NCBI GenBank assembly: GCA_032622095.1
Contig: CP136063.1
Location: forward strand, 220,055,982 to 220,119,981
Direction of reading: 5' to 3'
From: Siphonodentalium dalli
Taxonomy: Eukaryota; Mollusca; Scaphopoda; Gadilida; Siphonodentaliidae
DNA length: 64,000 bases
Positions 46,001 to 64,000 of this stretch are shown piece after piece. Each line of letters opens with the position of its first letter. Positions within the stretch are counted from its first letter, which is position 1. The translations under genes were made by a program, and so were the position numbers. The notes under the pieces were generated by a model. That model was given only the letters and a program-made list of their open reading frames with translations, had not been told where the DNA came from and did no database searches.

Positions 46001-49000
46001 AATAAAATGCGGACATCAAAGAGTGTTTTGACTGATCAGTGAAGCCTGGTCAGTGAGGCCATCTCAAGCGATGTTTGACAAACATGAAAGAGTGTTTTTA
46101 CGATAGTTTGGGACATCGACGCAGTTGAAACAATGTTGTGACAATTATGGTCACAGTATGAATTCTAGTGAGTGAACTAGACAGCTATATAACCTTAGCA
46201 AAGTTATCATGGAATCATTTCCTTGATGTTAATTCATTTTCTGAAGAACAGATATAAAGAGCGTTCTTAGTTATTTATCCAATAATATGTATGCAAATTT
46301 CTATGATGAACATTTAATTTGATATTTTTTCTGAAGAACAGACATAAAAAGCGTTCTTAGTTAATTATCCAATATAATATGTGTGCAAATTTCTATAATG
46401 AACATTTAATTTGGTATTTTTTTCTGAAGAACAGATATAAAGAGCGTTCTTAGTTAATTATCAAATAATATGTAAAAACTCAAATAATGAATGTGTGACT
46501 GACATCGATAGATTGAGACTGGGTGAGCCGCCATCGAAGAGAGTTCGACGACAGATGTCGGCCCTTCAGACCAAACTTCATAAGCTGTGTGTGGATTTCG
46601 ACAGCGGCAAGAAGAGCATGAAAGATTTCCTCGACATCATTGGCCATTCGATCAGATTCAAGAAATATTAAGTGTTGTTGTTAAGTGTATCGTTACTATT
46701 TACTGTTATTGCTGTGTATATGTATATAATTTCGTTCATTGAAATAAACATTGATTTTAACACATACCCATAGTATGAGTCAATATACCACACGCCCCTA
46801 GTAACAGTCAAAGGTGGGTAAATGTCCAGTGGGGAAATGTCCGCTTTGATATTTTGAAAGTGGGGAAATGTCCGGTGGGGAAATGTCCGGGTGGGGAAAT
46901 GTCCGTTTTGCCATTTCAAGGGCGGGTGGGGAAATGTCCGGTGGGGAAATGTCCGGGATTCCATGCCAACAATAGTCAATAACACAGACTCTGTACAGAA
47001 ATAATTGGGGACTCAAACATTAAGTTGGTCTTTGGCAATTGATTTCTAAATACTCATTGACAAGTAGATCCCTTAGGAAATGTTCAGATAATTATTTTAA
47101 CAAATGACCTTTTGTTGAACTTGTTATCTGAAATTTCCCTTCAATAAATAAGAGTCCTTCTGCACTTTTATTTACTATCGTCTGCTTATTTTTGCTGAAC
47201 ACCCCTCCAGAGGAATAATAGACACTTCCAATGTATACTGTTGTAACTGAATGGTAGAATTCATTCAGTATAGAAAGGGTCAAAATCTTTCTTTTAGTTT
47301 TAGATTTTGAAGAATGGGGTTTCTATTAAGATAGATACACTTATGGAGGCACTTGTTGAATTGATATCTCTCTTTTCGTTTTATATTATGAAGAATGGGG
47401 TTTCTATTAAGATAGATACACTAATGGAGGCACTTGTTGAATTAATATCTCTCTTTTCATTTTAGATTATGAAGAATGGGGTAACTATTAAGATGGATAT
47501 ACTAATGGAGGCCCTCAAGGATCTTCTTATGACACAACTGAGTCTGGCTTCAGATGTCACGGTCAAGTGTTCTTGTCAAGTTCTGAAGGTAATCTCAAAG
47601 AAGAGAGAACCACTCATATTAAAATTATAAAATGCTCTTGGGCATTGGGTATATGTGTTATATAATATTATAAAATGCTCTTGGGCATTGGGTATATGTG
47701 TTATATAATATTATAAAATGCTCTTGGGCATTGGGTATATGTGTTATATAATATTATAAAATGCTCTTGGGCATTGGGTATATGTGTTATATAATATTAT
47801 AAAATGCTCTTGGGCATTGGATATATGTGTTATATAATATTATAAAATGCTCTTGGGCATTGGGTATATGTGTTATATAATATTATAAAATGCTCTTGGG
47901 CATTGGGTATATGTGTTATATAATATTATAAAATGCTCTTGGGCATTGGGTATATGTTTTATATAATATTATAAAATGCTCTTGGGCATTGGGTATATGT
48001 GTTATATAATATTATAAAATGCTCTTGGGCATTGGGTATATGTGTTATATAATATTATAAAATGCTCTTGGGCATTGGGTATATGTGTTATATAATATTA
48101 TAAAATGCTCTTGGGCATTGGGTATATGTGTTATATAATATTATAAAATGCTCTTGGGCATTGGGTATATGTGTTATATAATATTATAAAATGCTCTTGG
48201 GCATTGGGTATATGTGTTATATAATATTATAAAATGCTCTTGGGCATTGGGTATATGTGCAATATGTATAAAAGTCTTTATAAATATCACCACCAAGAAG
48301 AACATGGAGAAATAGATCAACTTTGTTCTTATATTAATTATTGATAGTTCTCCAATAATTGAAATTTTGTGTGTTGAAACCATTGTTATGTAAATAAAAC
48401 AGTCAAGGACCTACAGTGATTTGTCAACAAACATCGCTAAACATGTAGTAAGTTCAAATATTTTAGTCTTAACCCTTTACCCAACAAAACGGCCAAATAA
48501 AGCTGCAACAGCCTAAATGATCTTGGGTCTGTCTCAATAAAACCATACAAATATGGATATCATTGGAACCGGCTCCTTGACCACATTGTGATGGTTACAG
48601 TTATGCCATGTGCCAATGCATTCTCTTATATATGCGAGTCGACCATAGGTTGCCTCGCATATATAAGAGAATACATTGGCCTAAAAAAAATCTTTTAAAA
48701 TTTTTAATGTGTTAAGCCAATGCATTCTCTTATATATGCGAGTCGACCATAGAGAATGCATTGGCACAGGGCCGTTCTGTTGGGTAAAGGGTTAATATGA
48801 TTTTCAGAATATTTTTCAATGTTTACCATCAAGTATTGATTAAACTTTAGTATGTTATTATAATAAAATAATAATAATGACATGTTTTATATAGCGATTA
48901 ACCAATGACTTGCTCTAACACGCTCGGTACAATATTACCCCAGTCATTTGTACAGGCCAACCAATGAACCGGCTGCAGCCATAACAGGCGCTGCTCTAGT

Positions 49001-52000
49001 TTGATCAGAACATGCTCTGATACTCATCAGTATGACAAGCTGACTGGTACTCGTTTAAAGCATGAGTGATGTTAAGCCGACACAGTACGAGCGACCTTGC
49101 TCAAGGGTCACAACTTGGCGCGGGTTCTGAAACAGTTAGCAATTGCACGTCGCTCAAAGTGGCCAGGCCACTGCTGTGTGAAGACTCACAATAGACGACG
49201 ATGTGCTGCGAACCCATATCGTTGTGTTTACAGCGAACACAAGTCTGACACGCTAACCACTGGACCACGGAGCGCTACCACATTGGACTTGTATCAATAA
49301 TTCCACTGTAACAGTTATGTTTACATAACAATTGTTTTGACATGCAAATTCTCTTACTAGTATTGGTGAGGTATTAACAAGTCTGAGTTTAGTGTGTCTG
49401 TCATTTGCGGAACGAGGTCCCCAGAGGGTGAATTTTGTGATGCTATCCCGCATAGCGGGTTAGGATCACCAAATTTACCTTCTCGGGACCTCATTCTGCA
49501 TGGCCTCATCTGCTATGGGAGACATAGACTCAGTTTGAAGTTCCCAAATGGTGAATATTGTGATGTGCACCCATTGGGAACCTCGATTATGCAATGTGTC
49601 GTCTGCCAATTTGGGGATATAGAGAAACTAAACTGAAAAAGAAATAGAAGCTATGTGAGAAATTTGATAATAAAGAAACTTTCCAGAGGTTCAAGCAGAA
49701 TGAGGTCCCAGAGGGTGAATTTAGTGCGGGATAGCATCACTAAATTAACCCTCTGGGGACCTCATTCTGACAGGCACACTCAGGCCTGGTATTAATAATG
49801 AAAATAAGAACTGATGGCATTTGCGTTATGCAAGTTATCGGAATAACACTAGTGCATTTGAGTGAAATTACCACATAAGCTGAAGTACCATAATCAAACA
49901 AAAGATAGCAATAGCAAAAAGTTTGGTTGTTGAGAATAAGGTGCCTGTCATTTGCAAAAATAAAGGTCCCCAAATTCACCCTCTGGGGACCTCATTCTGC
50001 TTAGGCCTCATCTTCTCTGGAAAGTTTCTTTATTATCAAATTTCTGTAGAAACTTCTTCACATAGATTCTATTTCTTTTTTTAGTCTAGTTTCTGTATAT
50101 CCCCAAATTGGCAGACGTCACATTGCATAATCCAGGTTCCCAATTGGTGTACATCTAAATATTCACCATTTGGGAACTTCAATCTGAGCCTATGTTTCCC
50201 ATAGAAGATGAGGCAATGAGAATGAGGTCCCCAGAGGGTGAATTTAGTGATGCTAGCCTGCTATGCGTGATAACGTCACTAAATTCACCCTCTGGGGACC
50301 TCATTATGTAAATTGTTTGAGTTATATTTTTCAGCTCTGTGGAGAGCATCCTGATAACGTCACTAAATTCACCCTCTGGGGACCTCATTATGTAAATTGT
50401 TTGAGTTATATTTTTCAGCTCTGTGGAGAGCATCTGATAACGTTTCGTTATTTGATTTTGTTATCTTTTTCAGCTCTGTGGAGCGACACTCAGCGATCAG
50501 TGTAGAGCATCCGGTATTGTTTCGCTATATGATCCTGTTTTTATACAACTAGAAGGTCTCCTGAGGAATGCAGTATTAGGACAGTAAGTACAATACGTCC
50601 AAATGCAACCCTTCAATTTTGAGGCGCACAATGGCACCAGGGCTGTAACGATATAACCCTGCTGCGATACGATACGTATCATGATTTTTACTCACCATAC
50701 GATATGCGTATCACGATTCTCTGTAGACTTTAAAAATTATTTTAATTTTAACCCTGAATGACGAATGGTGGCCTGGTATATAATGAAAATTCCGTTTCTA
50801 ATATCATACCATTCCATTACTAAGCTTATATAGCAGGGTTTGCGTTGCCAAATTTGCCAATGCGAAAAATAATTCACATTTGGCAATAAATATTTTCATT
50901 TGGCAAAAGTTTTGGCAAGTCACTTTTTAATTCCTCAAGAAAGTTGAAAAAATTCATTTCAGGAAACTATCACAATATAATTATACTAAGTGGTGTTTTA
51001 TAAGGTCTAGGAAAAGTTACACCTTTATTAAGATGCAGTTAATCTGATAGCATTAGTATTGATGGGTGGGGGATTACCCGTATTTAGGGTGGTGATGGTG
51101 TTTACTTAGCTAATCCTCTTGTAATGTGCCCCTCTGATGAAGCAACCCTTCTACAATTTTTTTGTTTCGGTGATTGGTTTATTGTGGTATGATAAACCAC
51201 AAAATATGACTCTCAATGTTGCAAATGTTCATAATTCTGTTTCCGGAGAAGACGTCTACCAGTGCTCTTGCGCTAATCTGTTGAGTGACCGTTAGTTTTT
51301 TGTTGGGCTTGGCTGGACATGGATAGCTTAATCCCCAGCCAAGTCGGCAATGTGCTGAGCGATTTCTGCTTGGCTCATTGTGCGCGTTGGAACATCCATG
51401 CTCATGATGGCTGGGTGAACATGGTTTTGGAGTATCGAGTCGCCGCAGCTTGATAGGACCGACCCAGAGTCCACCGGTCCGGGGCTAGCCAGACCACCAC
51501 AGATGGGGCCAAGAAGATCAAGAAGAAGAAGAAGACCCAATCACGTCGCCGCAGGGACACCCAACAGGTGGAGACAGGGGAGAACTGAGAGACGCCCAGT
51601 TCCGCCCCACCTGGTCCCGGTGCAAGAACAGCAGCCCACTATAGATGCATCAGCCACCATCAGCGGAAAGACAGGGACATCGATGTCACCCCGGCTGTCC
51701 CTGCCGCCGACTTTGTGGTGAGAATGGAGACACTTCCGTCATTACCACCGTCTCCAAACGCGGATGCAGCAGAGGACTTCCACCCACGGACACCGAGACC
51801 TCTGGTGTTCCCCGACATGCATCACGGAAGAGGAGCAGGAACCACCAGCTCCTACTCCTGCCGAAGATGGGAAACAGGAGCAGCTTCTTGGACTACAAAA
51901 AAGCTGGCTGAAATGGAAAAAGAGTGGCAACAATGGCAAGAGGAGTCTGAAAAAGATTACCAACAAGCGATGGAAGAACAAAAACAACAACAGCTTCTGA

Positions 52001-55000: not shown

Positions 55001-58000
55001 GTTACATTGGCTGCGGACTGCCGAAGGGGAAAGCAGCTGTGTTTATTATTTTATATTATTCTATAAAATATTTGTTGATTGAGATTGACTTTGAAAAAGA
55101 TATTGTTATGCATAATAATAAATTGTCAATAACCAATCGAAATGATGTGTAAGACATTGTCTCTGTACTGACTATATGTAAAACAAAAACACAATAGTCT
55201 ATAGTCAAAAAGAGATCACTCCCATTGGTTATAGACAATTTACAAAGTAACAGAAAGATGTGTTTTAAGTTTTTATTATAAATATACAAAATTTATAGAG
55301 CATCTGAAAATTAGCCCCCATCAAGGCCCTGTCATAGAAATCGTGGCCCCGTGCCATTTACAAACTGCGAAGACTGAATCGAGCCAAGGTCATGGTGTTG
55401 TTTTCTATTGAATGATACTGTTGATTTGTTTGAGATTTATTGCAATATTAGTTGAATGATACATTCATCCAGTTGGCACGGTGCCTGGGTATTAAGTTAT
55501 TAGTTTAACCCTTTACCCAACAGAATGGCCCTGTGCCAATGCATTCTCTTATATATGCGAGTCGACCATAGGTCGCCTCGCATATATAAGAGAATGCATT
55601 GGCTTAACACATTAAAAATTATAAAATTGTTAAAGAATGTAAGAAAAAATGGTAAAAAGTGTTAAAAAAATATTTTTTTTAGGCCAATGCATTCTCTTAT
55701 ATATGCGAGGCGACCTATGGTCGACTCGCATATATAAGAGAATGCATTGGCACAGGGCATAACTATAACTATCACAATGTGGTCAAGGAGCCGGTTCCAA
55801 TGATATCCATATTTGTATGGTTCTATTGAGACAGACCGAAGATATTTTAGGCTGTTGAAGCTTTATTTGGCTGGTTTTGGCCGGTTTTGGCCGGTTTGTT
55901 GGGTAAAGGGTTAACCCACCCGAATAAGTCCATAATAAGTCTTTAAATTAAACAAGCTCGGAAAGGTTCCACAGAAATGCTTGTTAAAAATTGTGTGTCA
56001 TCGTGCTATTTTTAAGTGCTGTGCTGGGTAGCGTCACTAAATTTAACCTCTGAGGACCTCATTCTGCAAATGACAGACACACTAAAATGTTGACAAATAT
56101 TTTCCCATACTCTGTGTAAGCCTATTTTTAAAGTCATTTCAACTCATGATGTTTACCTTTCAGAATGAACCTGTTTTCTATGATCCTGAAGGGCATGAGA
56201 TATCTCGCGAAGAAGCGGGCTTCTACTCGGACGAAATCGAATCAAATCAGTACAATCAGGAAGGGTACATGCTAAACGACGACGAACAGGAAGCGTATGA
56301 AATTCTTGAAGAAATGTCAGCTAACATAGACTGGCAGTCGGCACAAACTGGCAGCGCTGGCGATACGCCCTATCAACAATGGTCCAATGATGTGGGATAC
56401 GATCCTCATACGTGAGTTTCACCAAATAATAGTGATGGCCTAATAATAGTGATGGCCTAATAATAGTGATGGGTGGGCATTTGTGGCACAGAGTCAGCAA
56501 TCTGCAGCTGATGATGATCCTATCAAAACATTTTGGCCTCTTTTTATATGCCTGTTTGAAAAAACGGTTGTATTATGTAAATGGGTTGTCCGTCTGTCCG
56601 TCGTCCATCCGCTTTTGGTTTCCAGATGATAACTTTAGATTGAATCGAGTGAACTGAACCAAATTTGGTATGTTAGTTTACCACACCAAAATACAGATCA
56701 AGTTCGAATATGGGTTTCGTCCACATGATTTTGACTGAGTTATGCTCCTTTTTCGACTTAGATTTTACCTGATTTGCAGTTTCCGGATGATAACTTTATA
56801 TATTTACACACTAAGTGTTGTCATCACTAAATCCAGCATTCTGATTGGTCGGCGCCCACGTGGCTAGTTGCAGTTATTTCTCGGTGAATGTGCATCGCCT
56901 CATAACACCAAGCTAATAACACCATCGATACGTCATTAGGTTTGGAAAGACGAACGCGTAATGCTTTGGGCGCATTTTGACTCGCGCAGGATTGACTTAA
57001 TACATCATCGGGTTTCAACATGAGGAGAAATTGTTCCTATTAACTTTTGCCAAGGGTGCTATTGGGTATTTTGGGCTGATCTTGTCACGATACACTTTTC
57101 GATTTAAATATATTTACAAAAGTGGCTTTTTCGCTAAATGTATATAAATATAAGGATTAACTGTCATGTGGACTATTTTTATGGAGATGTAATAGTGAGG
57201 TAAGTGGACATAACTTGTATGTAAAACCCTTTGGGTTTTACACAAGTTATGTCCACTTACCTCACCGTTATATCTCCATAAAAACAGTCCATATGACAGT
57301 TAATCCTTATTTGAATCAAGTGAACTGAACCAAATTTGGTATATTAGTTTACAGCCCTGGCAATTCAGATTTGTTTGCTACGGCAGTAGAATGCCGTAGC
57401 CAATTTGATGTGCTACCATGCCTCTTGGGGAAATTAAATCATAGTTTCTTGAATGACGTCGCCTCACAATGAGTCAACTTAAGGCTTGTTCTGACCGAAT
57501 TATGGAATTTTCCATACAGTATTCAAAGTTTCAAACAGTATAACTGTATTTGATATTTTGTCAAACAAAAAATATTTTGATTTTTAACTTAATTTGTAAC
57601 AAACGCATTATGCAGCCACACGTGCATTGATGAAAATATAGCAAGAATCTAACACGGCCACCAGCGCCGTTACCTTTGAGAATTAGAGTGGTCTCCCATT
57701 GATAACATCTGAATGACTGTCACTGAGTAACTGATTGTTTGTGAAGACCCCGCCTTCCCCCAATTTGAAACGAATCGGCTTACTCGATTGGTTAAATACA
57801 ATTGTCTGTCATCATGATCAATAGACTTCTGCACTGATTTTCAGGTCGGCAGCTGGCTGACCTATTCCCATCAATCAAACTCTGTTGTTGTACTTCTATA
57901 ACCACGTGCCCTTGTGTATATTTGTCGACGATGCGACACAGTCAATAAAGCGTAACTGACATCACTCATTCAAGTCTTTGACACATTGTGATCAATTTGC

Positions 58001-61000
58001 ACGTGCGCACTACTTGTTTGTTACACGGTTTAACACATGTAGCCAGACTGGTTCCAATATTACTCCGTGACTAAAATGTTGTGTATCGAGTGTAACTTTC
58101 TTGGAAAGCGCGTGGGCACATTAAAAGAAGCCAACATTGTCGATTATCTGGGATTGTTGGATTGGCACAGGGCGGATAATATAACTTGGATTCAAATTTG
58201 AATTTGTCACTTTCTTTGAGTTCTCGGAAGGTGTTGGCTCTCCGCGCCTTGACTGTTTTAACAGTTATTTCTATTGTCATGCATGAATTTGACCATGGAT
58301 AAGAGAAATTCAACTCCTGTTTTTGTAGTTTGACCTTTTACTGTTTTATCACTATTCATTTTCAATCTTTGGAGGAATATTCAACTAGCTCAACACCATA
58401 CATGTCAGTGCCTGGTCAGCAATCCGATACGGCAGTGTAGTGTCGTAGTCGGAGCCGTTTACTTCAGCAAATCGCTTCGGCATTGCCGAATGCTGTACCC
58501 AAATGTGAGGGCTGAGTTTACCACCCCAAAATACAGATCAAGTTTGAATATGGGTTTTGTCCGCATGATTTTGACTGAGTTATGCCCCCTTTTCGACTTA
58601 GATTTTATCAGATGATAACTTTAGATTGAATCGAGTGAACTGAACCAAATTTGGTATTCAGATCAAGTTCAAATATTATTTTGTCTTAAGTCAAAGGTTT
58701 GAAACAAATGAATTAAACCTTGCCCCACTCTACTCCAGAAATGGGCATATTATGCCACTCCCCGACGGCGTGCTCTTGTTAACTCTTTGGGAGTCAATTT
58801 TCCAAATTTGTCAAGATCCTATTTTTAGCTCAACACTTTGTAAGTTTGAGCTATTGCCATGGTTTGGCGTCCGTCGTCCGTGTGTCCGTCAACGATTTCC
58901 TTTGGCGCGGGCTACGGGTCGTACCTTTGGTCTGATCTTTATGAGATTTGTCATGAATGTTGACATTGACAAGTAGATGGGAACGAGTCATTTTGGTGTC
59001 ATTCGGTCAAAAAACATGGCCGCTGGCGGCCATCTTGGTTTTCAAAATTCAATCCATTGGCGCGGGCTACAGGTCGTACTGTTCGTTTGATCATCATGAA
59101 ATTTGTCATGGATGTTAATATTGACATGTAGATGGGAACGAGTGATTTTGGGGTCGTTCGGTCCAAAAAACATGGCTGCCAGCAGCCATCTTGGATTTTA
59201 CTCTTTGCATGACTAAATCCTTTGGCGCGGGCTACAGGTTGTACATTTGGTCCGATGTTTATGAAATTTATCATGAATGTTGCCATTGACATGTAGATGT
59301 CATGGATGTTAATATTGACATGTAGATGGGAACGAGTAATTTTGGGGTCATTCGGCCAAAAAACATGGTCGCCAGCAGCCATCTTGGATTTTACTCTTTG
59401 TATGACTAAATCCTTTAGCACGGGCTACATGTCCTACTGTTCGTCTGATCATCATGAAATTTGTCATGGATGTTCATATTGACAAGTAGATGGGAATGAG
59501 TGATTTTGGGGTCGTTCGGCCAAAAAACATGGCCGCCAGCAGCCATCTTGGATTTTACTCTTTGCATGACTAAATCCTTTGGCATGGGCTACAGGCCGTA
59601 GCTTTGGTCGGAACTTCATGAAGTATGTCATGGATGTTAACAATGACATGTAGATGGGAACGAGTCATTTTGGGGTCATTCGGCCGAAAAACATGGCCGC
59701 TGGTGGCCATCTTGGATTTCAAATTTCAATCCATTGGCGTGGGCTACAGGTCGTACTGTTCGTCTGATCATCATGAAATATGTCATATATGTTAATATTG
59801 ACATGTTGGAGGGAACGAGTGATTTTGGGGTCGTTTGGCCAAAATACATGGCCGCCAGCAGCCATCTTGGATTTTACTCTTTGCATGACTAAATCCTTTG
59901 GCACGGGCTACAGGTTGTAGCTTTGGTCGGAACTTCATGAAATTTCTCATGGATGTTAACAATGACATGATGTAGATGGGAACGAGTCATTTGGGGTCGT
60001 TCGGCTGAAAAACATGGCTGCCAGCAGCCATCTTGGATTTTACTCTTTGCATGACTATATCCTTTGGCGTGGACTACAGGTCGTAGCTTTGGTCAGATCT
60101 TCATGAATTTTGTCATGGATGTTAACAATGACACGTAGATGGGAAACGAGTCCTTTTGGGGTCAATTGGCCAAAAAAACATGGCCGCCAGCAGCCATCTT
60201 GGATTTTACTCTTTGCTTGACTAAATCCTTTGGCACAGGTTAGACATTTCAATTAGCACCTTTCCTATTCCTCCATTTACTGTCAACCATTAAATTATTC
60301 CCCTACCTAAGTTGAGCTACAGTGTCATTGACACTTTCATTGGCATATATAACATCGGATATTTTTGGGGGTATGTTCTAAAAGCTAATCAAAATTCAAT
60401 TAAACCGCTCCAGGATCCTGTTTCACTTCAAAATTTATGTCATGAAAACAAGGAACAATTTGTCTGTGATAAATTGGGACCTTAGCCATTATAATATTTA
60501 GCCTCTTTTTTTAATATGACTATAGCAAGCATCCTCCCCTTTCTCATGTCATCCATACATTTTGTACCACCTTCATTATGTGGTGAAATTATATGACAGA
60601 TAGGCTTTAAGCCATTGTGTCTTTAACTATACCTAATTTAACAAACGGAAAGTCATTATATTCCATCAGCCAGTCAGTCCTCCATTATATTGTCACTCCA
60701 TGTTCCATCCCGGAGGGCTAGGTGTGATTTACACTGACCCTATCAAGTCACCTGGGGAGATGCCCACTAACTTATAATGGTTAATCTATAAAACAACAAC
60801 AATTGTCTAATGACGTGGGATAGAATCCTCATACATGAATTTCACTAATGACGTGGGATAGAATCCCCATACATGAGTTTCACTAATGACGTGAAATACG
60901 ATCCTCATACATGAGTTTCAGTAATGACGTGGAATACAATCCTCATACATGAGTTTCACTAATGACGTAGGATACGATCCTCATATAAGAGTTTCACTAA

Positions 61001-62273
61001 TGACGTAGGATACGATCCTCATACATGAGTTTCACTAATGACGTGGGATACGATCCTCATACATGAGTTTCAGTAATGACGTGGAATACGATCCTCATAC
61101 ATGAGTTTCAGTAATGACGGGGAATACGATCCTCATACATGAGTTTCAGTAATGACGTGGAATACGATCCTCATACATGAGTTTCAGTAATGACGGGGAA
61201 TACGATCCTCATACATGAATTTCACTAATGACGGGGAATACGATCCTCATACATGAGTTTCACTAATGACGGGGAATACAATCCTCATACATGAGTTTCA
61301 CTAATGATGGGGAATACGATCCTCATACATGAATTTCACTAATGACGGGGACTACGATCCTCATACATGAGTTTCAGTAATGACTGGGAATACGATCCTC
61401 ATACATGAATTTCACTAATGACATGGGATACGATCCTCATACATGAGTTTCACTAATGACGTGGGATAGATCCTCATACATGAATTTCACTAATGACGTG
61501 GGATACGATCCTCATACATGAATTTCACTAATGACGGGGAATACGATCCTCATACATGAGTTTCACTAATGACGGGGAATACGATCCTCATACATGAATT
61601 TCACTAATGACATGGGATACGATCCTCATACATGAGTTTCACTAATGACGTGGGATAGATCCTCATACATGAATTTCACTAATGACGTGGGATAGATCCT
61701 CATACATGAATTTCACTAATGACGGGGAATACGATCCTCATACATGAATTTCACTAATGACGGGGAATACGATCCTCATACATGAATTTCACTAATGACG
61801 GGGAATACGATCCTCATACATGAGTTTCACTAATGACGTGGGATAGATCCTCATACATGAATTTCACTAATGACGTGGGATACGATCCTCATACATGAGT
61901 TTCACTAATGACGTGGAATACGATCCTCATACATGAGTTTCACTAATGACGTGGGATACAATCCTCATACATGAGTTTCACTAATGACGTGGAATACGAT
62001 CCTCATACATGAGTTTCACTAATGACGTGGAATACGATCCTCATACATGAGTTTCACTAATGACGTGGAATACGATCCTCATACATGAGTTTCACTAATG
62101 ACATGGAATACGATCCTCATACATGAGTTTCACTAATGACATGGGATACGATCCTCATACATGAGTTTCATTAATGATGTGGGATACGATCCTCATACAT
62201 GAGTTTCACTGCTTTTCATCCTCCCAGAAACAAAATTTGGCAGCAGACGGCAGACCAGAGAATATGGTGCTGA
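21923..62273 (+). CDS. PAIP1: PAIP1, polyadenylate-binding protein-interacting protein 1
   Basis: Cytoplasmic translation-initiation stimulator that bridges poly(A)-binding protein and the eIF4A/eIF3 machinery. Exons: 21923-22094, (28048-28076 tentative), 34401-34478, 36356-36589, 43187-43299, 45077-45185, 47466-47588, 50474-50583, 53576-53702, 56164-56411, (62228-62273 tentative). The sum is 1389 nt in frame, near the size of vertebrate PAIP1. Domains in order: Ser-rich N-terminus; PAM2 motif LSYSAVEFVP (Leu, Ala, Phe, Pro anchors for the PABP MLLE domain); MIF4G domain with NFRYTGARICNF, LTLFIGELFINFE and TSQMLIKSVLNMKETDWGR; conserved NEPVFYDPEG; acidic PAM1-like tail YMLNDDEQEAYEILEEM. 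All firm junctions from 34401 on are GT-AG with matching phase. Exon 1 does not join the PAM2 exon in frame, so at least one small exon is missing between them. Confidence 0.93.
22262..23161 (-). pseudogene. LINE ORF2 reverse transcriptase C-terminal fragment
   Basis: Open frame of about 300 codons starting inside the RT palm/thumb region (HKLQKWSDKWLLRFHPEKC), then ITTDKNLNFEQHIHEKAQ, LVRPRLEYSQPAW and LEKVQRRATKLVP, typical of CR1/RTE-like ORF2 C-termini. The catalytic YxDD region is absent (5' truncation near 23161). Lies antisense in PAIP1 intron 1. Confidence 0.9.
23750..26077 (-). pseudogene. LINE ORF2 fragment: reverse transcriptase plus RNase H
   Basis: Reads leftward from 26077: RT motifs LVNKHSSDW, GVPQGSVISPILF and the catalytic IKYADDVTLIA; then a complete RNase H (TDGSTFPNS, NLAEIYGIKLG, LCDSQCAIQS, HIMGHIGIKGNELADAAA); then a C-terminal Cys/His knuckle (CGLLCSIKHYLYDC). 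RT plus RNase H points to an I/Jockey-superfamily LINE. The frame shifts near 24700 (inside RNase H) and near 24300-24370, where a short CGGCAATCTGCTACGGC repeat has invaded. The N-terminal endonuclease and early RT are missing, so it is 5'-truncated and dead. Confidence 0.92.
26285..26812 (+). pseudogene. LINE ORF2 C-terminal tail fragment
   Basis: A 166-codon ORF with MSLIQCHFDYACNFWF, KLQTSQNRMVRFILGL, DTRSGKFKYNNP and CWNNVLKYL, the conserved region downstream of RT in many animal LINEs. No catalytic RT motif. It faces the neighbouring 23750-26077 fragment, so it comes from a different insertion. Confidence 0.85.
26813..28420. other. PAIP1 intron segment, mostly unassigned
   Basis: Holds a 33-bp hairpin at 27695-27727 (CTACAATCAAGGGGTT and inverse) and two opposed short ORFs at 27440-27682 with no recognisable domain. 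The tentative PAIP1 micro-exon lies at 28048-28076. Confidence 0.4.
28048..28076 (+). CDS. PAIP1: Tentative PAIP1 micro-exon (29 nt)
   Basis: AATTATTGCAG acceptor, 29 nt, donor GTAAGT. It is the only segment I noticed between exon 1 and the PAM2 exon that has splice signals, no stop, and the 3n+2 length needed to restore frame (reading VEKVSRTTED after the split codon). The pyrimidine tract is poor, and such matches can occur by chance in 12 kb. Confidence 0.2.
28421..28585. mobile_element. Mariner-type hairpin MITE, copy 1 (internally deleted)
   Basis: Ends CAGTAATGCTCTAATTAATC and inverse, bordered by TA on both sides; arms are nearly complementary along their length. One arm is shorter than in the copies at 44059 and 63545. 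Confidence 0.75.
28622..28690. mobile_element. MITE-1, end fragment
   Basis: TAGCATCACTAAATTCATCC followed by TCTGGGGACCTCA, one terminal hairpin arm only. Confidence 0.55.
29700..30115. mobile_element. MITE-1, diverged copy
   Basis: TTTGCAGAATGAGGTCCCCA at the left, family middle segment (TGCCCAATGGGTGCACATCA) and a right hairpin ending CTCATTCTGCAAAAGTCAGAC. Part of the following tandem duplication. Confidence 0.65.
29791..30790 (+). repeat. 501-bp tandem segmental duplication
   Basis: CAGGGACCTCATTCTGCTTA at 29791 recurs at 30292, and GTTGGGATGTCTC at 30264 recurs at 30766, with matching sequence between. The two units hold MITE-1 pieces and the CTGTCTGTC-type repeat. Confidence 0.75.
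32303..32538. mobile_element. piggyBac-like MITE family C
   Basis: Ends CCGTTTCATGACTGGAGC and, inverted, CCCTTCCATGACTGGAGC. TTAA is intact on the right (32539-32542) and degenerate (GTAA) on the left. Two copies or part-copies of the CATTCTCTTATATATGCGAG hairpin arm lie inside. Confidence 0.65.
32539..33298. other. PAIP1 intron segment, no gene assigned
   Basis: A 60-codon ORF at 32724-32906 and one at 32011-32232 have mixed composition but no recognisable domain or workable splice phase. Nothing else seen. Confidence 0.35.
33299..33660. mobile_element. MITE-1, copy with shortened hairpins
   Basis: GTCATTTGCAGAATGAGGTC at the left and GGTGAATTTGGTGATGATAG with ATAGCATTACTAGA at the right; middle segment present (GGGATATAGAAACTGAACAG). 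Confidence 0.65.
34401..34478 (+). CDS. PAIP1: PAIP1 exon with PAM2 motif
   Basis: Acceptor TTTGTTTCATTTCAG, 78 nt, donor GAT/GTGAGTACT, phase 0 at both ends. Encodes LPSNAASNLSYSAVEFVPSS. The LxxxAxEFxP pattern is the PAM2 motif that binds the MLLE domain of PABP and sits just before MIF4G in PAIP1. Confidence 0.9.
34825..34865 (+). ncRNA. Hammerhead-like core motif (weak)
   Basis: CTGATGA (34830-34836), a possible 4-bp stem GATA/TATC, then GAAA (34853-34856). These match the invariant core of a hammerhead ribozyme, but no convincing stem III or cleavage site is visible. Such motifs are frequent in remnants of retroelements. Confidence 0.2.
35045..35187. mobile_element. Short inverted-repeat element
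   Basis: AATGACACGTATGTTAATGG and its near-inverse at 35162-35187 enclose about 90 bp (GCGGAAGGATACTACGAGAG). Directly abutted by a CCAATGCATTCTC hairpin. Confidence 0.6.
35198..35272. repeat. Free-standing copy of the CCAATGCATTCTC hairpin
   Basis: Near-perfect palindrome, arms CCAATGCATTCTCTTATATA, centre TCGACCATAGGTCG. Same hairpin as inside the piggyBac-like families but without clear CCCTTT ends here. Confidence 0.7.
35900..36290. mobile_element. MITE-1, nearly full copy
   Basis: Left hairpin half (GGCTAGCATCACCAAATTCA), middle segment GTGCAGCTATGTGAAGAAG, right hairpin with a local TGCTAGCATGCTATGCTAG expansion, ending TCTGCAAATGACAGTCAC. Ends about 65 bp before a PAIP1 exon. Confidence 0.7.
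36356..36589 (+). CDS. PAIP1: PAIP1 exon, start of MIF4G domain
   Basis: Acceptor GCATCTTTACAG, 234 nt (78 codons), donor CAG/GTTTGTATA. Encodes DALYSEFSRL through IEDFKNIIFSLTSHPARFEQ and DPKILSQFIEMLFEQ, the first helices of MIF4G. A decayed copy of its second half lies at 42657-42745. Confidence 0.93.
36602..36836. mobile_element. TTCAGATAATAAG MITE, copy in PAIP1 intron
   Basis: Contains the palindromic pair GGAAATGATCAGACAACAAG and CTTATTATCTGAACATTTCC plus a tail AATAATAGACCATTCCAATG. Related copies at about 3180-3305, 47060-47270 and 54200-54407, some with a TTAACCCTTTCTATGCTAAA-type border, suggest another TTAA-targeting family. Confidence 0.55.
36893..37339 (+). repeat. Minisatellite, 18-20 bp unit
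   Basis: About 23 units of CCCGAAACACCGGGCATG with an optional GT. All reading frames stay open in places, so the several overlapping ORFs here are artefacts of the repeat. Confidence 0.9.
37452..37610. repeat. DIRS left inverted terminal repeat
   Basis: GAGGGATAAACATGCATCC through TTGATTGCTGTGCGATCAAT to CAGAGACAGCGACTTTTT; inverse complement of 42304-42462 with a few mismatches. Confidence 0.9.
37697..37830. repeat. DIRS internal complementary region
   Basis: The first part (GTTTATCCCTCCTCGTCG to CTAGGAGGAGGG) is complementary to the element's extreme left end 37376-37465. The second part (TTGTCCCATATCTACATTCA to GGAGGGATAAACATGCAT) repeats the extreme right end. This gives the circle junction from which the element boundaries were read. 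Confidence 0.9.
37951..39210 (-). pseudogene. DIRS tyrosine recombinase
   Basis: Starts inside the end of the RT-RNase H frame (overlap typical of DIRS). Shows the N-terminal SAM-like part (ILNSWRPSTRKQYDLAW), the catalytic Arg region LVALVALTTFQRVQTL and, in the last frame, AHSFRGSSASAAF (HxxR) and KVANWSSAETFYKFYYR. Two frame breaks, near 38293 and near 38240, separate the first Arg from the HxxR box, so no active integrase is made. Confidence 0.9.
38754..40797 (-). pseudogene. DIRS reverse transcriptase and RNase H
   Basis: RT begins near 40797: FVTKKKTGGFRPIINLKHL, SLDLKDAYFSCPI, then the catalytic WFFIDDSCFAHSD. An in-frame TAA at 40318-40320 in an A-run cuts the frame between these. 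A frameshift near 39715 precedes RNase H (LHTDASLAGWGAFCG, NYLELLAIEFA, IKSDNTTAIAYINN, HFIPDHLSR), and another near 39280 precedes the C-terminal block LNKQLEPYVAWKPDPKAWH. All motifs are DIRS-like; the product is inactive. Confidence 0.92.
40794..42178 (-). pseudogene. DIRS gag-like ORF
   Basis: ATG at 42178 (MAQRSTNELQIELSDFMGFD). A Lys/Ser/Thr-rich basic stretch is followed by a coiled-coil-like DISHLKKQVADLQERLL and a conserved capsid-like part. One frameshift near 41066 separates this from LFGDDFSQQVKSNNEIS and an Arg-Gly-rich tail (RPGSGRGRISKHRGRRRY) suited to RNA binding. Confidence 0.85.
42304..42462. repeat. DIRS right inverted terminal repeat
   Basis: AAAAAGTCGCTGTCTGACAG to TTTATCCCTCCGAGG; partner of 37452-37610. 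Lies just upstream of the gag ORF, so it is the 5' end of the element. Confidence 0.9.
42657..42745 (+). pseudogene. Decayed copy of the PAIP1 first MIF4G exon
   Basis: AATCCTGCGCGGTTTGAGCA, GTCACTGATCCTAAAATCCT and CTTTATAGAAATGCTGTTTG match the second half of exon 36356-36589 with scattered substitutions and a 4-5 base gap. The copy lacks the donor (exon ...TTTGAACAG/GT against copy TTTGTATTAACCC) and any acceptor, so it cannot be spliced as an exon. It precedes the real next exon by about 450 bp. Confidence 0.88.
42763..42904. mobile_element. MITE-1, minimal hairpin copy
   Basis: CAAGCCTTGAAATAGTGTC at one end and the inverse at the other; a single GAGGTCCCCAGAGGGTGAA hairpin between. Shows that the family can exist as one hairpin. 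Confidence 0.75.
43013..43137. mobile_element. MITE-1, left half
   Basis: AGCCTGAGTTTAGTGTGCCT end plus first hairpin. It stops about 50 bp before a PAIP1 exon. Confidence 0.65.
43187..43299 (+). CDS. PAIP1: PAIP1 MIF4G exon 2
   Basis: Acceptor TTTATTTTTCAG, 113 nt, donor AG/GTAGGATT (two bases over). Encodes SISEANFRYTGARICNF and INKELSSHSIFRNFRTEFLR, matching the PAIP1 NFSYMGARLCN block. Confidence 0.95.
43365..43602. mobile_element. MITE-1, right half
   Basis: Middle segment (GATGGGAACCTCGATTATGC, AAAGAAACTTTCCAGAGAAG) and second hairpin ending CCTCATTCTGTGAATGACAG. With 43013-43137 it would make one full element, yet a PAIP1 exon lies between the halves. Confidence 0.65.
44059..44271. 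mobile_element. Mariner-type hairpin MITE, copy 2
   Basis: Ends CAGTAATGCTCTAATTAATC and inverse, TA on both sides. Arms of about 100 bp are almost perfectly complementary around GCTCTCGCCGAGAGC. Confidence 0.85.
44516..44885. mobile_element. MITE-1, copy with right end truncated
   Basis: Left CAAGCCTTGAAATAGTG end, hairpin, family middle segment (GGGATATAGAAACTGAACAG), then GCAGAATGAGGTCCCCAGAG where the second hairpin breaks off. Confidence 0.6.
45077..45185 (+). CDS. PAIP1: PAIP1 MIF4G exon 3
   Basis: Acceptor TATCTTTTTAACAG, 109 nt, donor GAA/GTAAGTAC. The first G completes Arg; then CQGDFQARENLLHGEESLQ and RLCGLTLFIGELFINFE, the LGELYLNLE-type MIF4G helix. Confidence 0.95.
45310..45715 (+). 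repeat. GTCCGTCC-type repeat, two ~193-bp units
   Basis: After TCTGTCCGTCCGTCCGTC, two units share ACCTTCATGGTG, GATATTTGAAACTTCAGA and GTGCAACATGTATATAGATG. Intronic, non-coding. Confidence 0.65.
45873..46961. mobile_element. Mutator/foldback-like element with minisatellite ends and 9-bp target duplication
   Basis: Arms are tandem CCGGACATTTCCCCAC units (45880-45995) and their inverse (46813-46957). CATGCCAAC occurs immediately outside both ends (45864-45872, 46962-46970). A 9-bp duplication with long inverted arms fits Mutator-like elements. Inside are three ~93-bp tandem units (46235-46475) and an ORF unlike a transposase. Confidence 0.75.
46501..46671 (+). CDS. Unrecognised ORF end inside the Mutator-like element
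   Basis: Open frame of 56 codons to TAA. It includes GEPPSKRVRRQMSALQTK then LHKLCVDFDSGKKSMKDF and a basic C-terminus RFKKY. An internal ATG (46555) would give 38 residues. ATCGATAG before it could be a splice acceptor. Composition looks like real coding sequence; I do not recognise the family. It may be a host exon captured by the element or the element's own last exon. Confidence 0.4.
   Translation, partial: DIDRLRLGEPPSKRVRRQMSALQTKLHKLCVDFDSGKKSMKDFLDIIGHSIRFKKY
47285..47465 (+). pseudogene. Two tandem extra copies of the next PAIP1 exon's acceptor and start
   Basis: The 81-bp unit (GAAGAATGGGGTTTCTATTA ... CTCTTTTC) starts at 47309, 47390 and, as the real exon, 47471. Each unit is about 63 bp of exon-like sequence plus the polypyrimidine tract. 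Spacing is exactly 27 codons. Copy 1 keeps a TTTTAG acceptor; copy 2 has lost it (TTTTAT). Reading through copies 1 and 2 is open (ILKNGVSIKIDTLMEALVEL) until the TAG of the real acceptor. Confidence 0.9.
47466..47588 (+). CDS. PAIP1: PAIP1 MIF4G exon 4
   Basis: Acceptor TCTTTTCATTTTAG, 123 nt (41 codons), donor AAG/GTAATCTC. Encodes IMKNGVTIKMDILMEALKDL then LLMTQLSLASDVTVKCSCQV, corresponding to the GQVTRADILQVGLRELL block of PAIP1. Confidence 0.94.
47623..48258 (+). repeat. 43-bp minisatellite, ~15 near-identical units
   Basis: Unit ATTATAAAATGCTCTTGGGC plus ATTGGGTATATGTGTTATATAAT. Only single-base differences between units. Starts about 35 bp after the preceding PAIP1 donor and does not contain exon sequence. 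Confidence 0.95.
48483..48791. mobile_element. piggyBac-like MITE family B, copy 1
   Basis: Ends CCCTTTACCCAACAAAACGG and inverse, TTAA on both sides (48479-48482, 48792-48795). Holds two copies of the CCAATGCATTCTC hairpin (48614-48680 and a shortened one at 48717-48765). Confidence 0.8.
48796..49374. other. PAIP1 intron segment, no gene seen
   Basis: A 67-codon ORF (49097-49300) has no recognisable domain. Contains short CATGTTT/GCTCT-rich sequence but no clear repeat family. Confidence 0.35.
49375..49789. mobile_element. MITE-1, full-length copy
   Basis: AAGTCTGAGTTTAGTGTGTC end, first hairpin, complete middle segment, second shortened hairpin and GACAGGCACACTCAGGCCTG end. Confidence 0.75.
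49940..50310. mobile_element. MITE-1, copy next to PAIP1 exon duplications
   Basis: AAGGTGCCTGTCATTTGCA end with degenerate first hairpin, middle segment in opposite orientation, and second hairpin ending GGGGACCTCATTATGTAAAT. Its last 40 bp are included in the tandem unit that also carries the exon start. Confidence 0.7.
50325..50473 (+). pseudogene. Two tandem extra copies of the next PAIP1 exon's acceptor and start
   Basis: TATATTTTTCAG/CTCTGTGGA occurs at about 50325 and 50409 before the real TCTTTTTCAG/CTCTGTGGA at 50474. The 83-84 bp unit starts at GATAACG (50269, 50353, 50436). After CTCTGTGGA the copies lack 22 exon bases and resume at GAGCATC; the second continues as GTTTCGTTATTTGATTTTGTT, a mutated version of the exon's GTTTCGCTATATGATCCTGTT. 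Confidence 0.85.
50474..50583 (+). CDS. PAIP1: PAIP1 MIF4G exon 5
   Basis: Acceptor TTATCTTTTTCAG, 110 nt, donor CA/GTAAGTAC (two bases over). Encodes LCGATLSDQCRASGIVSLY then DPVFIQLEGLLRNAVLG, matching the KLTGSVLED and IENVVLDA region of PAIP1. Confidence 0.93.
50584..51299. other. PAIP1 intron segment, no gene seen
   Basis: Contains a CGATACGATACGTATCATGA/GATATGCGTATCACGAT inverted motif near 50665-50720 (possible transposon end) and otherwise unremarkable AT-rich DNA. Confidence 0.4.
51300..52135 (+). other. Compositional island with unrecognised ORFs and a poly(A) signal
   Basis: Visibly richer in G and C than its surroundings. Overlapping plus-strand ORFs (51503-51721, 51645-51911, 51715-52077) and ATAAATAAAGGC near 52116. 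The best frame ends in a charged coiled-coil-like EMEKEWQQWQEESEKDY and a basic tail NPKKKRKKKR. The frame seems broken upstream. Could be a retrocopy, a transposon gene or viral-derived DNA; no family recognised. Confidence 0.4.
51715..52077 (+). CDS. Unrecognised ORF with coiled-coil and basic tail
   Basis: About 116 codons from ATG 51724. Proline-rich first part (LPSLPPSPNADAAEDFHPRT), Trp/Glu/Gln-rich helix (EMEKEWQQWQEESEKDYQQA) and a C-terminal nuclear-localisation-like KKKRKKKR. The frame is open upstream to about 51559 without ATG. Not part of PAIP1: no splice phase fits and the intron is otherwise accounted for. Function unknown. Confidence 0.35.
   Translation: MVRMETLPSLPPSPNADAAEDFHPRTPRPLVFPDMHHGRGAGTTSSYSCRRWETGAASWTTKKLAEMEKEWQQWQEESEKDYQQAMEEQKQQQLLRELQYISPPSSSGKQNPKKKRKKKR
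52152..52176 (+). repeat. Poly-C run
   Basis: Twenty-five consecutive C residues. Length in the assembly is probably unreliable. Confidence 0.9.
52250..52640 (+). repeat. ~167-bp dispersed repeat, about 2.3 units
   Basis: TTTCAAAAGAGGGTT, GAAAATGTTGGATTTCCATC and CATCAGGAGGGC recur in order. Open frames here are not conserved genes. Confidence 0.65.
52681..53112 (+). repeat. 39-bp minisatellite, ~11 units
   Basis: Unit AAGCTTTCACCATACCACCA followed by CCTTCCCCACATAGGACAC. Long ORFs on both strands are repeat artefacts. Confidence 0.93.
53576..53702 (+). CDS. PAIP1: PAIP1 MIF4G exon 6
   Basis: Acceptor TTGTAATATCTGCAG, 127 nt, donor CAG/GTATGAAC. The first G completes Gln; then TSQMLIKSVLNMKETDWGR and a Ser/Asn/Thr-rich linker. 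Corresponds to VKQMLLKLVELRSSNWGR in PAIP1, the end of MIF4G. Confidence 0.95.
53741..54175. mobile_element. MITE-1, full-length copy
   Basis: CAAGCCTGAGTTTAGTGTGC end, first hairpin, inverted middle segment, second hairpin ending ATTCTGCAAATGACAGGCT. Begins 38 bp after a PAIP1 donor. Confidence 0.75.
54200..54440. mobile_element. TTCAGATAATAAG MITE copies
   Basis: Palindrome pair GGGAAATGTTTAGATAATAA and TTATTATCTGAACATTCCC, followed by GCATAGAAAGGGTTAA and a repeated half unit. Same family as 36602-36836. Confidence 0.6.
54441..55508. other. PAIP1 intron segment, no gene seen
   Basis: AT-rich; short ORFs on both strands without recognisable motifs. Confidence 0.4.
55509..55910. mobile_element. 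piggyBac-like MITE family B, copy 2
   Basis: Ends CCCTTTACCCAACAGAATGG and inverse GGGTAAAGGG, with TTAA at 55505-55508 and 55911-55914. Contains two CCAATGCATTCTC hairpins (55540-55604, 55683-55750) and a triplicated TGGCCGGTTT motif at the right. Confidence 0.8.
56027..56093. mobile_element. MITE-1, end fragment
   Basis: TAGCGTCACTAAATTTAACC to CAAATGACAGACACACTAAA: one terminal arm, about 70 bp before a PAIP1 exon. Confidence 0.6.
56164..56411 (+). CDS. PAIP1: PAIP1 exon with acidic PABP-binding region
   Basis: Acceptor TGATGTTTACCTTTCAG, 248 nt, donor AC/GTGAGTTTC (two bases over). Starts NEPVFYDPEGHEISREEAG, the conserved block after MIF4G in PAIP1. The acidic segment YMLNDDEQEAYEILEEM resembles the C-terminal PAM1 region. 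Ends NDVGYDPH; these last 26 nt and the donor are the founder of the 60809-62210 array. Confidence 0.95.
56412..58895. other. PAIP1 last intron: GTCCGTC repeats, a 159-bp hairpin and no gene
   Basis: Two copies of a repeat (TTTAGATTGAATCGAGTGAA, CAAATTTGGTAT) at about 56620-56790 and 58520-58680 are separated by unrelated DNA. That DNA includes a near-perfect hairpin at 57151-57309 (arms TAAGGATTAACTGTCAT and inverse) and CTACGGCAGTAGAATGCCG-type motifs at about 57390 and 58430. A triplicated AATAATAGTGATGG follows the exon. Short ORFs not credible. Confidence 0.5.
58896..60240 (+). repeat. ~160-bp tandem repeat, eight units
   Basis: Unit includes TTTGGCGCGGGCTACAGG, CATCATGAAATTTGTCATGG, GACATGTAGATGGGAACGAG, GGGGTCGTTCGGCCAAAAA and GCAGCCATCTTGGATTTTAC. 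Units alternate in detail, and a dispersed copy lies at 3306-3787. ORFs on the minus strand are repeat artefacts. Confidence 0.9.
60241..60808. other. Intron segment before the junction array, no gene seen
   Basis: No repeat family or ORF recognised. Its last bases (CAACAATTGTCT) already resemble PAIP1 exon sequence CAACAATGGTCC just upstream of the array unit. Confidence 0.45.
60809..62210 (+). repeat. Tandem array built from a PAIP1 exon end plus its splice donor
   Basis: About 37 units of 37-38 bp. Unit AATGACGTGGGATACGATCC, TCATACATGAGTTTCACT. The first 26 nt equal the last 26 nt of exon 56164-56411 (AATGATGTGGGATACGATCC, TCATAC) and the last 12 equal the first intron bases (GTGAGTTTCACC), except that the donor GT has become AT in every unit I read. 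Frame-wise each unit reads NDVGYDPHT then a stop. Homology extends a few exon bases upstream of the first unit, which confirms the direction of origin. Confidence 0.95.
62228..62273 (+). CDS. PAIP1: Tentative PAIP1 terminal coding exon
   Basis: Strong acceptor CTGCTTTTCATCCTCCCAG directly after the array. With the two bases carried from the previous exon it reads TNKIWQQTADQRIW, Cys, stop (TGA 62271-62273), bringing the whole gene to a clean frame. The end of this exon lies inside MITE-1 sequence (from 62252). No conservation can be seen, so the true last exon may instead be outside the window. Confidence 0.3.
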
Positions 62274-62704
62274 ACATTTGCAGAATGAGGTCCCCAGATG
62301 GTGAAATCAGCGATGCTAGTAGGCTAGCATCACCAAATTCACCCTCTTGGGACCTCATTCTGCTTAAGGATCATCTGCTATGGGAGACTTAGACACAGAT
62401 TTAAGTTCCCAGATGGTGAATATTGTGATGTACACCCATTGGGCAACTCAATTATGAATTGTGTTCTCTGCCAATTTTGGGATATAGAGAAACTAAACTA
62501 AAAAAGTAAAAGCAACTTTCTAAAGAAACTAAAAAACTTGTTAATTAGATAATAGAGAAAATTTCCAGAGAAAATGAGGCCTAAGTAGAATGAGGTCCCC
62601 AGAGGGCGAATTTAGTAATGCTAATCCGCTGTGTCGGGTAGTGTCACTAAATTCACCCTCTGGGGACCTCATTCTGAACATGTCCCGCACCATATTCTCA
62701 GGCC
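62252..62704. mobile_element. MITE-1, full-length copy
   Basis: Ends AGACCAGAGAATATGGTGC and inverse GCACCATATTCTCAGGCCT, two hairpins and the family middle segment. Would supply the stop codon of the tentative last PAIP1 exon. Confidence 0.75.
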
Positions 62705-63544
62705 TGGCTGACGGAGACCAGCTTAGAAGTTTAAAATTGGGAGAAGTCACTTCTCACAATTTCATTATTAGGGAGAAGTAGACTGTTAGAAGTAGTTACA
62801 CTGACTGTAGTTCAATGTTGACCCCAACATATCTGTTTTATGATCCAAAAACTATTACTGTGAATGGCTTTAAATTCGTTGGTATCAATTTTCGTGGTTC
62901 GGCTATTTATGACTTTTTCATGGGTTCGTAAATTCGTGGGTCCGCCGGTACTAAATGTCACCTTTAAACTCCCAATAATAACAACCAAATCCAACTTATA
63001 GAAGTGCAGACACATCGACGAGCCGTCGGAACTTGCGCATCCACACTGCAGGCCTAACGAAATTAGCACGTCGCGTGTCAAAGCTTTGTTGCCGACTATC
63101 GAAAATGTTAACAACGGGATTGTATTACTTAAGAATACATAAGTTAGGTGAAAGTACTCGCTTCTCAAAACGATCAATGCGTGATTGGGGATTATTTACC
63201 GATGCCAACATCTATTAATCTGCACCATATAAAATACAACCACAAACTGTCATCTGTATAATGCATCTTAATAGAGTTACCTCCATAGGCTTTGGATGTA
63301 CATTGGGTTAATAGAGTTACATCATGCATGACATTTCTTATTTCTCAAAATCGATCTAGTTTCAAAGATTATTTTTTCGTTGGGTTTTTAATTTTGTGGT
63401 TATCAGCAACCACGAAAACCACAAAATTGGACCACCTTGAATAAATGTACTTTTACAGTATGCCATTCAAGAGCCCATTTATAAAGCCATTGTAATGAGT
63501 AAATACATGATTAAATATGCTGTTTGGAGATAGGCATACTTGTT
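62705..63544. other. No gene seen
   Basis: Contains TTCGTGGGTCCGCCGG/ACCACGAAAACCACAAAATT motifs near 62890-62950 and 63400-63440, a loosely inverted pair that may be a degraded element of about 550 bp. Short ORFs not recognisable. Confidence 0.4.
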
Positions 63545-63757
63545 CAGTAATGCTCTAATTAATCGACTCCTTAACCACCGCAGAATTATGGATAACTTTC
63601 AGGATTTAGTCGGAAATATGGTTTGTTGCCATTTATCGGAAAGATCTCGGCGAGAGCTTTCCGATGAATGGCAACAAGCCATATTTCCGACCAAAACCTG
63701 AAAAGTTACCCATAATTCTGCTGTGGTTAAGGAGTCGATTAATTAGAGCATTTCTTG
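63545..63757. mobile_element. Mariner-type hairpin MITE, copy 3
   Basis: CAGTAATGCTCTAATTAATC end and degenerate inverse (GAGCATTTCTTG), with nearly perfect complementary arms around GATCTCGGCGAGAGC. Confidence 0.8.
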
Positions 63758-64000
63758 TACATGAGAGTGAAGTCACTTCTCCCCAGAACAGAAATAGGGA
63801 GAAGTGGCACAATTATCTCCCAAATCGCTCTCCAGGCTGATCCCTAGCAGCTGATAGAAATGGGTTCAGTCCGAAACAATTTTGTATAGTGATGAGCCGA
63901 TAATCTGGAACGACAATCGGAATCAGCCGATTGTGGCCCATCGGATGACAATTGGTACTCGGGTTTCAACATCGGCATTTCCGATTGTCAAAATAAAAAT

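Follow-up and report, generated by a model that had tools for sequence, protein, structure and literature searches.

The intron that follows exon 8 of a predicted PAIP1 gene in the scaphopod Siphonodentalium dalli holds a 38-bp tandem array whose unit resembles the end of that exon joined to its splice donor, which raises the questions of how a protein-coding splice junction came to found a repeat array and what became of the splice signal it carried. We examined both in a 64,000-nt stretch of contig CP136063.1 (hereafter the window, to which all coordinates refer).

The array (60809..62210, plus strand) consists of 37 head-to-tail units, the number reported in the first-pass annotation of this sequence, and Tandem Repeats Finder run on the window returned 60807-62210 with a period of 38, 37.1 copies and 94% matches. 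When cut at an AATGA anchor, 33 of the 37 units were 38 bp long and four were 37 bp, and they represented 24 distinct sequences. Adjacent units were more similar to each other than shuffled units (lag 1: 0 of 2000 shuffles as low), as were units five apart (lag 5: 1 of 2000 shuffles as low), and blocks of several units have therefore been duplicated as well as single units. Head-to-tail units within the range of about 10-100 bp, with variant units spread by local duplication, are the features by which minisatellites are recognized, and the array has both. It had been labeled a satellite; because the window has a single such array, 1.4 kb long with units of 38 bp, we class it as a minisatellite instead. 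Searching the window with a 35-mer from the array at up to three mismatches gave 31 matches, 30 of them within the array and one at 56386, against a chance expectation of 0.00 (100 shuffles), such that at this threshold the sole relative of the array within the window was the end of PAIP1 exon 8. A 22-mer from the array had no match among viral contigs, a result that carries little weight, and Rfam families gave none across 56000-64000 at the gathering threshold.

We identify the host gene as PAIP1, as had been proposed, based on the predicted exons and their similarity to homologs. Exon 8 in our numbering (56164..56411), followed by a GTGAGT donor from 56412, was located by tblastn with homologs, and exon 2 (36356..36589) and exon 5 (47466..47588) by the same approach together with an open frame, all on the plus strand. 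Exon 6 (50474..50583, plus strand) was placed from a weak profile match, splice signals and an open frame; its profile match (E 0.019) was outscored by a reverse-strand peptide (E 0.0098). Another candidate for exon 6, at about 51313, was rejected. Exons 2 to 8 (36356-56411) would splice into a stop-free frame of 1064 nt, every exon being flanked by AG upstream and GT downstream, and the order of the exons along the plus strand matches that in PAIP1 homologs. Upstream pieces, comprising exon 1 and two PAM2-like stretches, were weaker (best E 0.03, 1.5 and 0.66). Sixteen homologs, taken from among the 1000 candidates scored in one search (a second search scored 7998), aligned with 38-47% identity from the MIF4G region to exon 8; seven of the 16 were named, all of them from molluscs. 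In the larger of two PAIP1 trees the window sequence joined the chiton Liolophura weakly (83/86), and the smaller tree left it unplaced. Exon 8 had no match to Pfam families, and its only PDB matches were eight weak ones to unrelated proteins.

We also assessed whether the window includes the end of the gene. Based on a loose pattern, 33 of 39 homologs carry an acidic AAYE-F-like C-terminal segment within their last 45 residues (19 of 39 with a stricter pattern), and two more do so by eye; the remaining four were snails and a sea slug. The weakest match listed (P0055) was excluded from this count, and P0047 and P0049 were excluded from the accompanying alignment, as the start of exon 8 was not found in them. 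A profile search did not find the segment in 56412-64000 (best E 0.68), where the window ends, and the last PAIP1 exon probably lies beyond position 64000.

The founder of the array is a stretch of at least 49 nt (56374..56422, plus strand), made up of the last 38 nt of exon 8 and the first 11 nt of the intron, which aligns without gaps to 60797-60845. Within it, the 26 exonic positions 56386-56411 and the intron positions 56412-56422 correspond to one unit. The exonic part of the unit is as annotated, whereas the intron part is 11 nt and not 12, as the 38th base, which forms the unit border, reads T in all 37 units compared to C in the intron. The distance of 4.4 kb between donor and array agrees with the original description. 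The terminal unit (62173..62210, plus strand) is the most similar to the founder, with 36 of 37 bases identical over 62173-62209 and only the donor G differing; the other 36 units are identical to the founder at 31 to 35 of 37 positions, with a gap counted as a difference. Aligning all units in this way supported the exon-intron junction as founder and, together with our search of the other exons, added two elements absent from the first-pass annotation, namely an exon-derived left flank and junction copies at three other exons. The flank (60797..60808, plus strand) is identical to 56374-56385 at 10 of 12 positions, a level reached at two of 60,700 positions tested, one of which is the exon itself. 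Because the sequence left of the first unit is also derived from the exon, the copied stretch was wider than one unit, at 49 bp or more. This rules out a single clean 4.4-kb insertion between tandem copies, since the left flank requires a wider first duplication.

Comparison of the units suggests an order of changes. Of the 37 founder positions, one alone, the donor G, is altered in every unit, with the donor GT replaced by AT in 36 units and by AA in one (unit 60961), a detail that refines the earlier report of AT in the units then read. A T6C change is present in 35 of the 37 units and absent from the last unit and unit 61303, and the next commonest changes occur in 21, 12 and 12 units. The simplest reading, based on parsimony, would place the loss of the donor and the change at the unit border before amplification, and T6C early within it; alternatively, all units may have been converted to a dead donor later. 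The earlier view that the donors appeared disabled as a group, before or during amplification, is narrowed by parsimony to the former, but its hint of selection is not needed. Of the two CpG sites in the founder, one contains the donor G, and the change there is a CpG-to-CpA transition for which ordinary mutation suffices.

We consider it quite probable that the array originated by local duplication of the splice junction, followed by loss of the donor, tandem amplification and removal together with the intron. The anatomy of the array and its flank indicates that a segment of at least 49 nt, covering the end of exon 8, its donor and 11 nt of intron, was duplicated into the intron downstream, in direct orientation. 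The copy would then have lost its donor by the G to A change in the CpG and acquired the C to T change at what later became the unit border. Mispairing of short direct repeats, either at the source or at the edges of the copy, would have generated the first 38-bp tandem repeat. At the source, CCAA occurs at 56384-56387 and 56422-56425 (plus strand), 38 bp and thus one unit length apart, so that this pair may mark where the first tandem duplication began and ended, while CT at both edges of the junction copy provides an alternative pair. Slippage, unequal exchange or gene conversion may subsequently have increased the array to 37 units, including by blocks, with the last unit remaining nearest to the founder. 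We do not narrow the expansion to one mechanism, because longer repeats are regarded in PMC3389668 as expanding through gene conversion rather than replication slippage. The array would finally be spliced out with the intron, most likely without having any function, and loss of the donor may have rendered the copy harmless.

Junction-spanning copies were found for four of the ten PAIP1 exon stretches tested (exons 2, 5, 6 and 8), two of the ten being weak PAM2-like guesses, and all copies were on the plus strand in the intron adjoining their own exon. Matches with fewer than 10 exonic bases were left out of the list of copies, as were most units of the array. The end of exon 2 with 16 nt of intron has a copy roughly 6 kb further along that intron (42654..42752, plus strand; blastn 78% over 99 columns), of which 42654-42740 is exonic. 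This copy lost 10 nt at the junction, between GTTTG repeats, and CAG became GCT, while past the 10-nt gap it matches the intron sequence GTTTGTA-TAACCCTTT with a score reached by 0 of 2000 random 26-mers. Because GTTTGT remains, its donor is weakened at most. Two copies of the acceptor and 50 nt of exon 5 lie upstream of that exon (47282..47434, plus strand, 81-bp period; 90% and 85% identity), the first with AG and the second with AT, and two copies of the acceptor and first 10 nt of exon 6 lie upstream of exon 6 (50313..50428, plus strand, 84-bp period; 88% identity), both with AG. Three of the four copied acceptors have thus kept AG, and all three have a further AG close upstream, unlike the seven real acceptors of the gene. 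The 84-bp repeat near the acceptor of exon 6 includes element sequence. Tandem repeats are abundant in the window (63 entries, many overlapping), so some overlap between exon ends and repeats is expected by chance.

The behavior of these copies bears on whether the loss of the donor was selected, such that only a copy with a dead donor could persist and be amplified. Absence of the donor G from all 37 units would be expected under such selection, as would the alteration of CAG in the exon 2 copy and the tolerance of AG in most copied acceptors. However, the GTTTGT retained in the exon 2 copy leaves the array as the one event, and about 1/7 of single founder changes would strike the donor G if a tenfold rate at CpG is assumed. 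Selection for a dead donor is therefore an unlikely account, and we retain duplication followed by ordinary mutation as the preferred reading.

The surroundings of the array were considered with respect to mobile sequence. A transposon-like element with 68-nt terminal inverted repeats that are 82% complementary occupies 62251..62706, and inverted-repeat elements are abundant at many other places in the window; the stretch 62251-62300 matches 38 further places there at E up to 0.01. Element sequence at 42615-42653 also abuts the exon 2 copy. These associations would fit the capture of the PAIP1 exon end by a dispersed satellite or transposon, the array being one of its genomic copies. Against this, the array occurs once in the window, on the same strand as its founder and in the adjoining intron; its left flank (60230-60808) has no other match within the window at E up to 0.1, and element similarity on the right begins at 62251, 40 nt beyond the array. 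We thus regard capture by an element as improbable compared to local duplication.

A function for the array would depend on the sequence directly after it. A pyrimidine-rich stretch ending in AG (62211..62227, plus strand) forms a candidate acceptor, with AG at 62226-62227 and its G 17 nt past the end of the array. The first-pass annotation had placed the array directly before this acceptor, and the proximity and pyrimidine content hold, although the exon that would follow enters element sequence after 23 nt. With 15 of 18 pyrimidines the candidate equals the best of the seven real PAIP1 acceptors (12 to 15 of 18), and only one other plus-strand site in 56412-64000, and none on the reverse strand, scored at least as high in a scan whose bar was the candidate's own score. 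The last unit contains CTCAT, which we take to be a branch-point-like word. The array could accordingly be imagined as supplying the branch region used by the 62227 acceptor, with an alternative last exon from 62228 that ends PAIP1 with NKIWQQTADQRIWC before a stop and drops the acidic segment. Yet the candidate has seven T compared to 9 to 13 in the real acceptors, and the NKIWQQTADQRIWC tail is unlike any aligned homolog. The candidate exon is doubtful because it runs from its 24th base into the element end at 62251 and because the acidic segment was not found in 56412-64000. A functional array consequently has a slim chance of being correct, and the neutral history that we favor leaves unexplained why a good acceptor-like site should follow only 17 nt after the array.

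The junction copies and the candidate acceptor could also be combined in a broader reading, in which PAIP1 repeatedly copies its own junctions, a splicing filter keeps donor copies only if the donor is lost or weakened while tolerating acceptors, and the array is the amplified extreme, its last unit possibly acting as the branch region for an alternative last exon at 62228. We consider this combination very unlikely to hold as a whole.

The relative age of the exon and the array can be judged from the encoded protein. Residues Y305, W308 and S309, encoded near the end of exon 8 and ahead of the unit, are invariant across 17 aligned sequences, including that of the window, and the WANDDSAYD of the chiton homolog shares a W-x-N-D stretch with the WSNDVGYD of the window. 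The W and S are not universal, with A in place of S in the chiton and no W in the starfish and scorpion homologs. Because the exon stretch encodes residues common to homologs, the exon is older than the array, and the comparison argues that the exon end preceded it. That the exon instead acquired its end from a pre-existing satellite, as the near identity of the last unit might suggest, is scarcely credible given these shared residues and the left flank, where similarity to the exon continues for another 12 nt.

The splice-junction founder is the unusual part of the history of this array. Minisatellite birth at short direct repeats was reportedly treated by Taylor and Breden in 2000 and by Haber and Louis in 1998, and the PAIP1 array likewise has a unit of 10-100 bp, short direct repeats spaced by one unit length in its founder, and local expansion, whereas here the founder consists of an exon end and its splice donor and persists 4.4 kb away in an intact frame. 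One study (PMC4039745) is also said to address minisatellites and splicing in C. elegans. A literature search of titles and abstract openings, with most subscription journals outside its scope, found no description of a minisatellite that arose from the end of an exon together with its donor. In the potato RdRp gene, a tandem duplication over an intron-exon boundary, on the acceptor side and with one extra copy, led to the gain of a new intron (PMC4974935). That case shares with PAIP1 a duplication across an exon-intron boundary inside one gene and in direct orientation, while the PAIP1 case concerns the donor side and involves 37 units, loss of the donor and no exon shown to have been gained. 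Human segmental-duplication genes contain internal tandem repeats, some at exon-intron boundaries, that alter gene structure (PMC2812944). Those repeats also have units of minisatellite size, but they change the exons or introns of transcripts, whereas the PAIP1 array lies deep in an intron and has lost the splice signal.

The array extends both the birth of minisatellites at short direct repeats and the duplication of sequence across exon-intron boundaries, and indicates that splice junctions can give rise to minisatellites. Many tandem arrays no longer have a recognizable founder. In this case the founder still belongs to an intact reading frame, more sequence was copied than one unit contains, and the units record the order of changes. 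Whether intronic junction copies are kept only when the donor has been lost or weakened becomes a question that is testable across genomes.

Other repeats were observed in the PAIP1 introns. A 43-bp array at 47620-48259 (14.9 copies, 99% matches) begins about 30 nt after the exon 5 donor and is probably younger than the 38-bp array because it is more uniform. Further minisatellites are located at 36900-37336 (19 bp, 22.7 copies) and 52680-53112 (39 bp, 11.2 copies). Retroelement-like long open frames occur on the minus strand at 23753-26131 and 37954-42349, and a reverse transcriptase search with 24650-26131 returned 14 proteins with E values up to 1e-20, of which the best match was 32% identical and one was named as jockey-like by its source.
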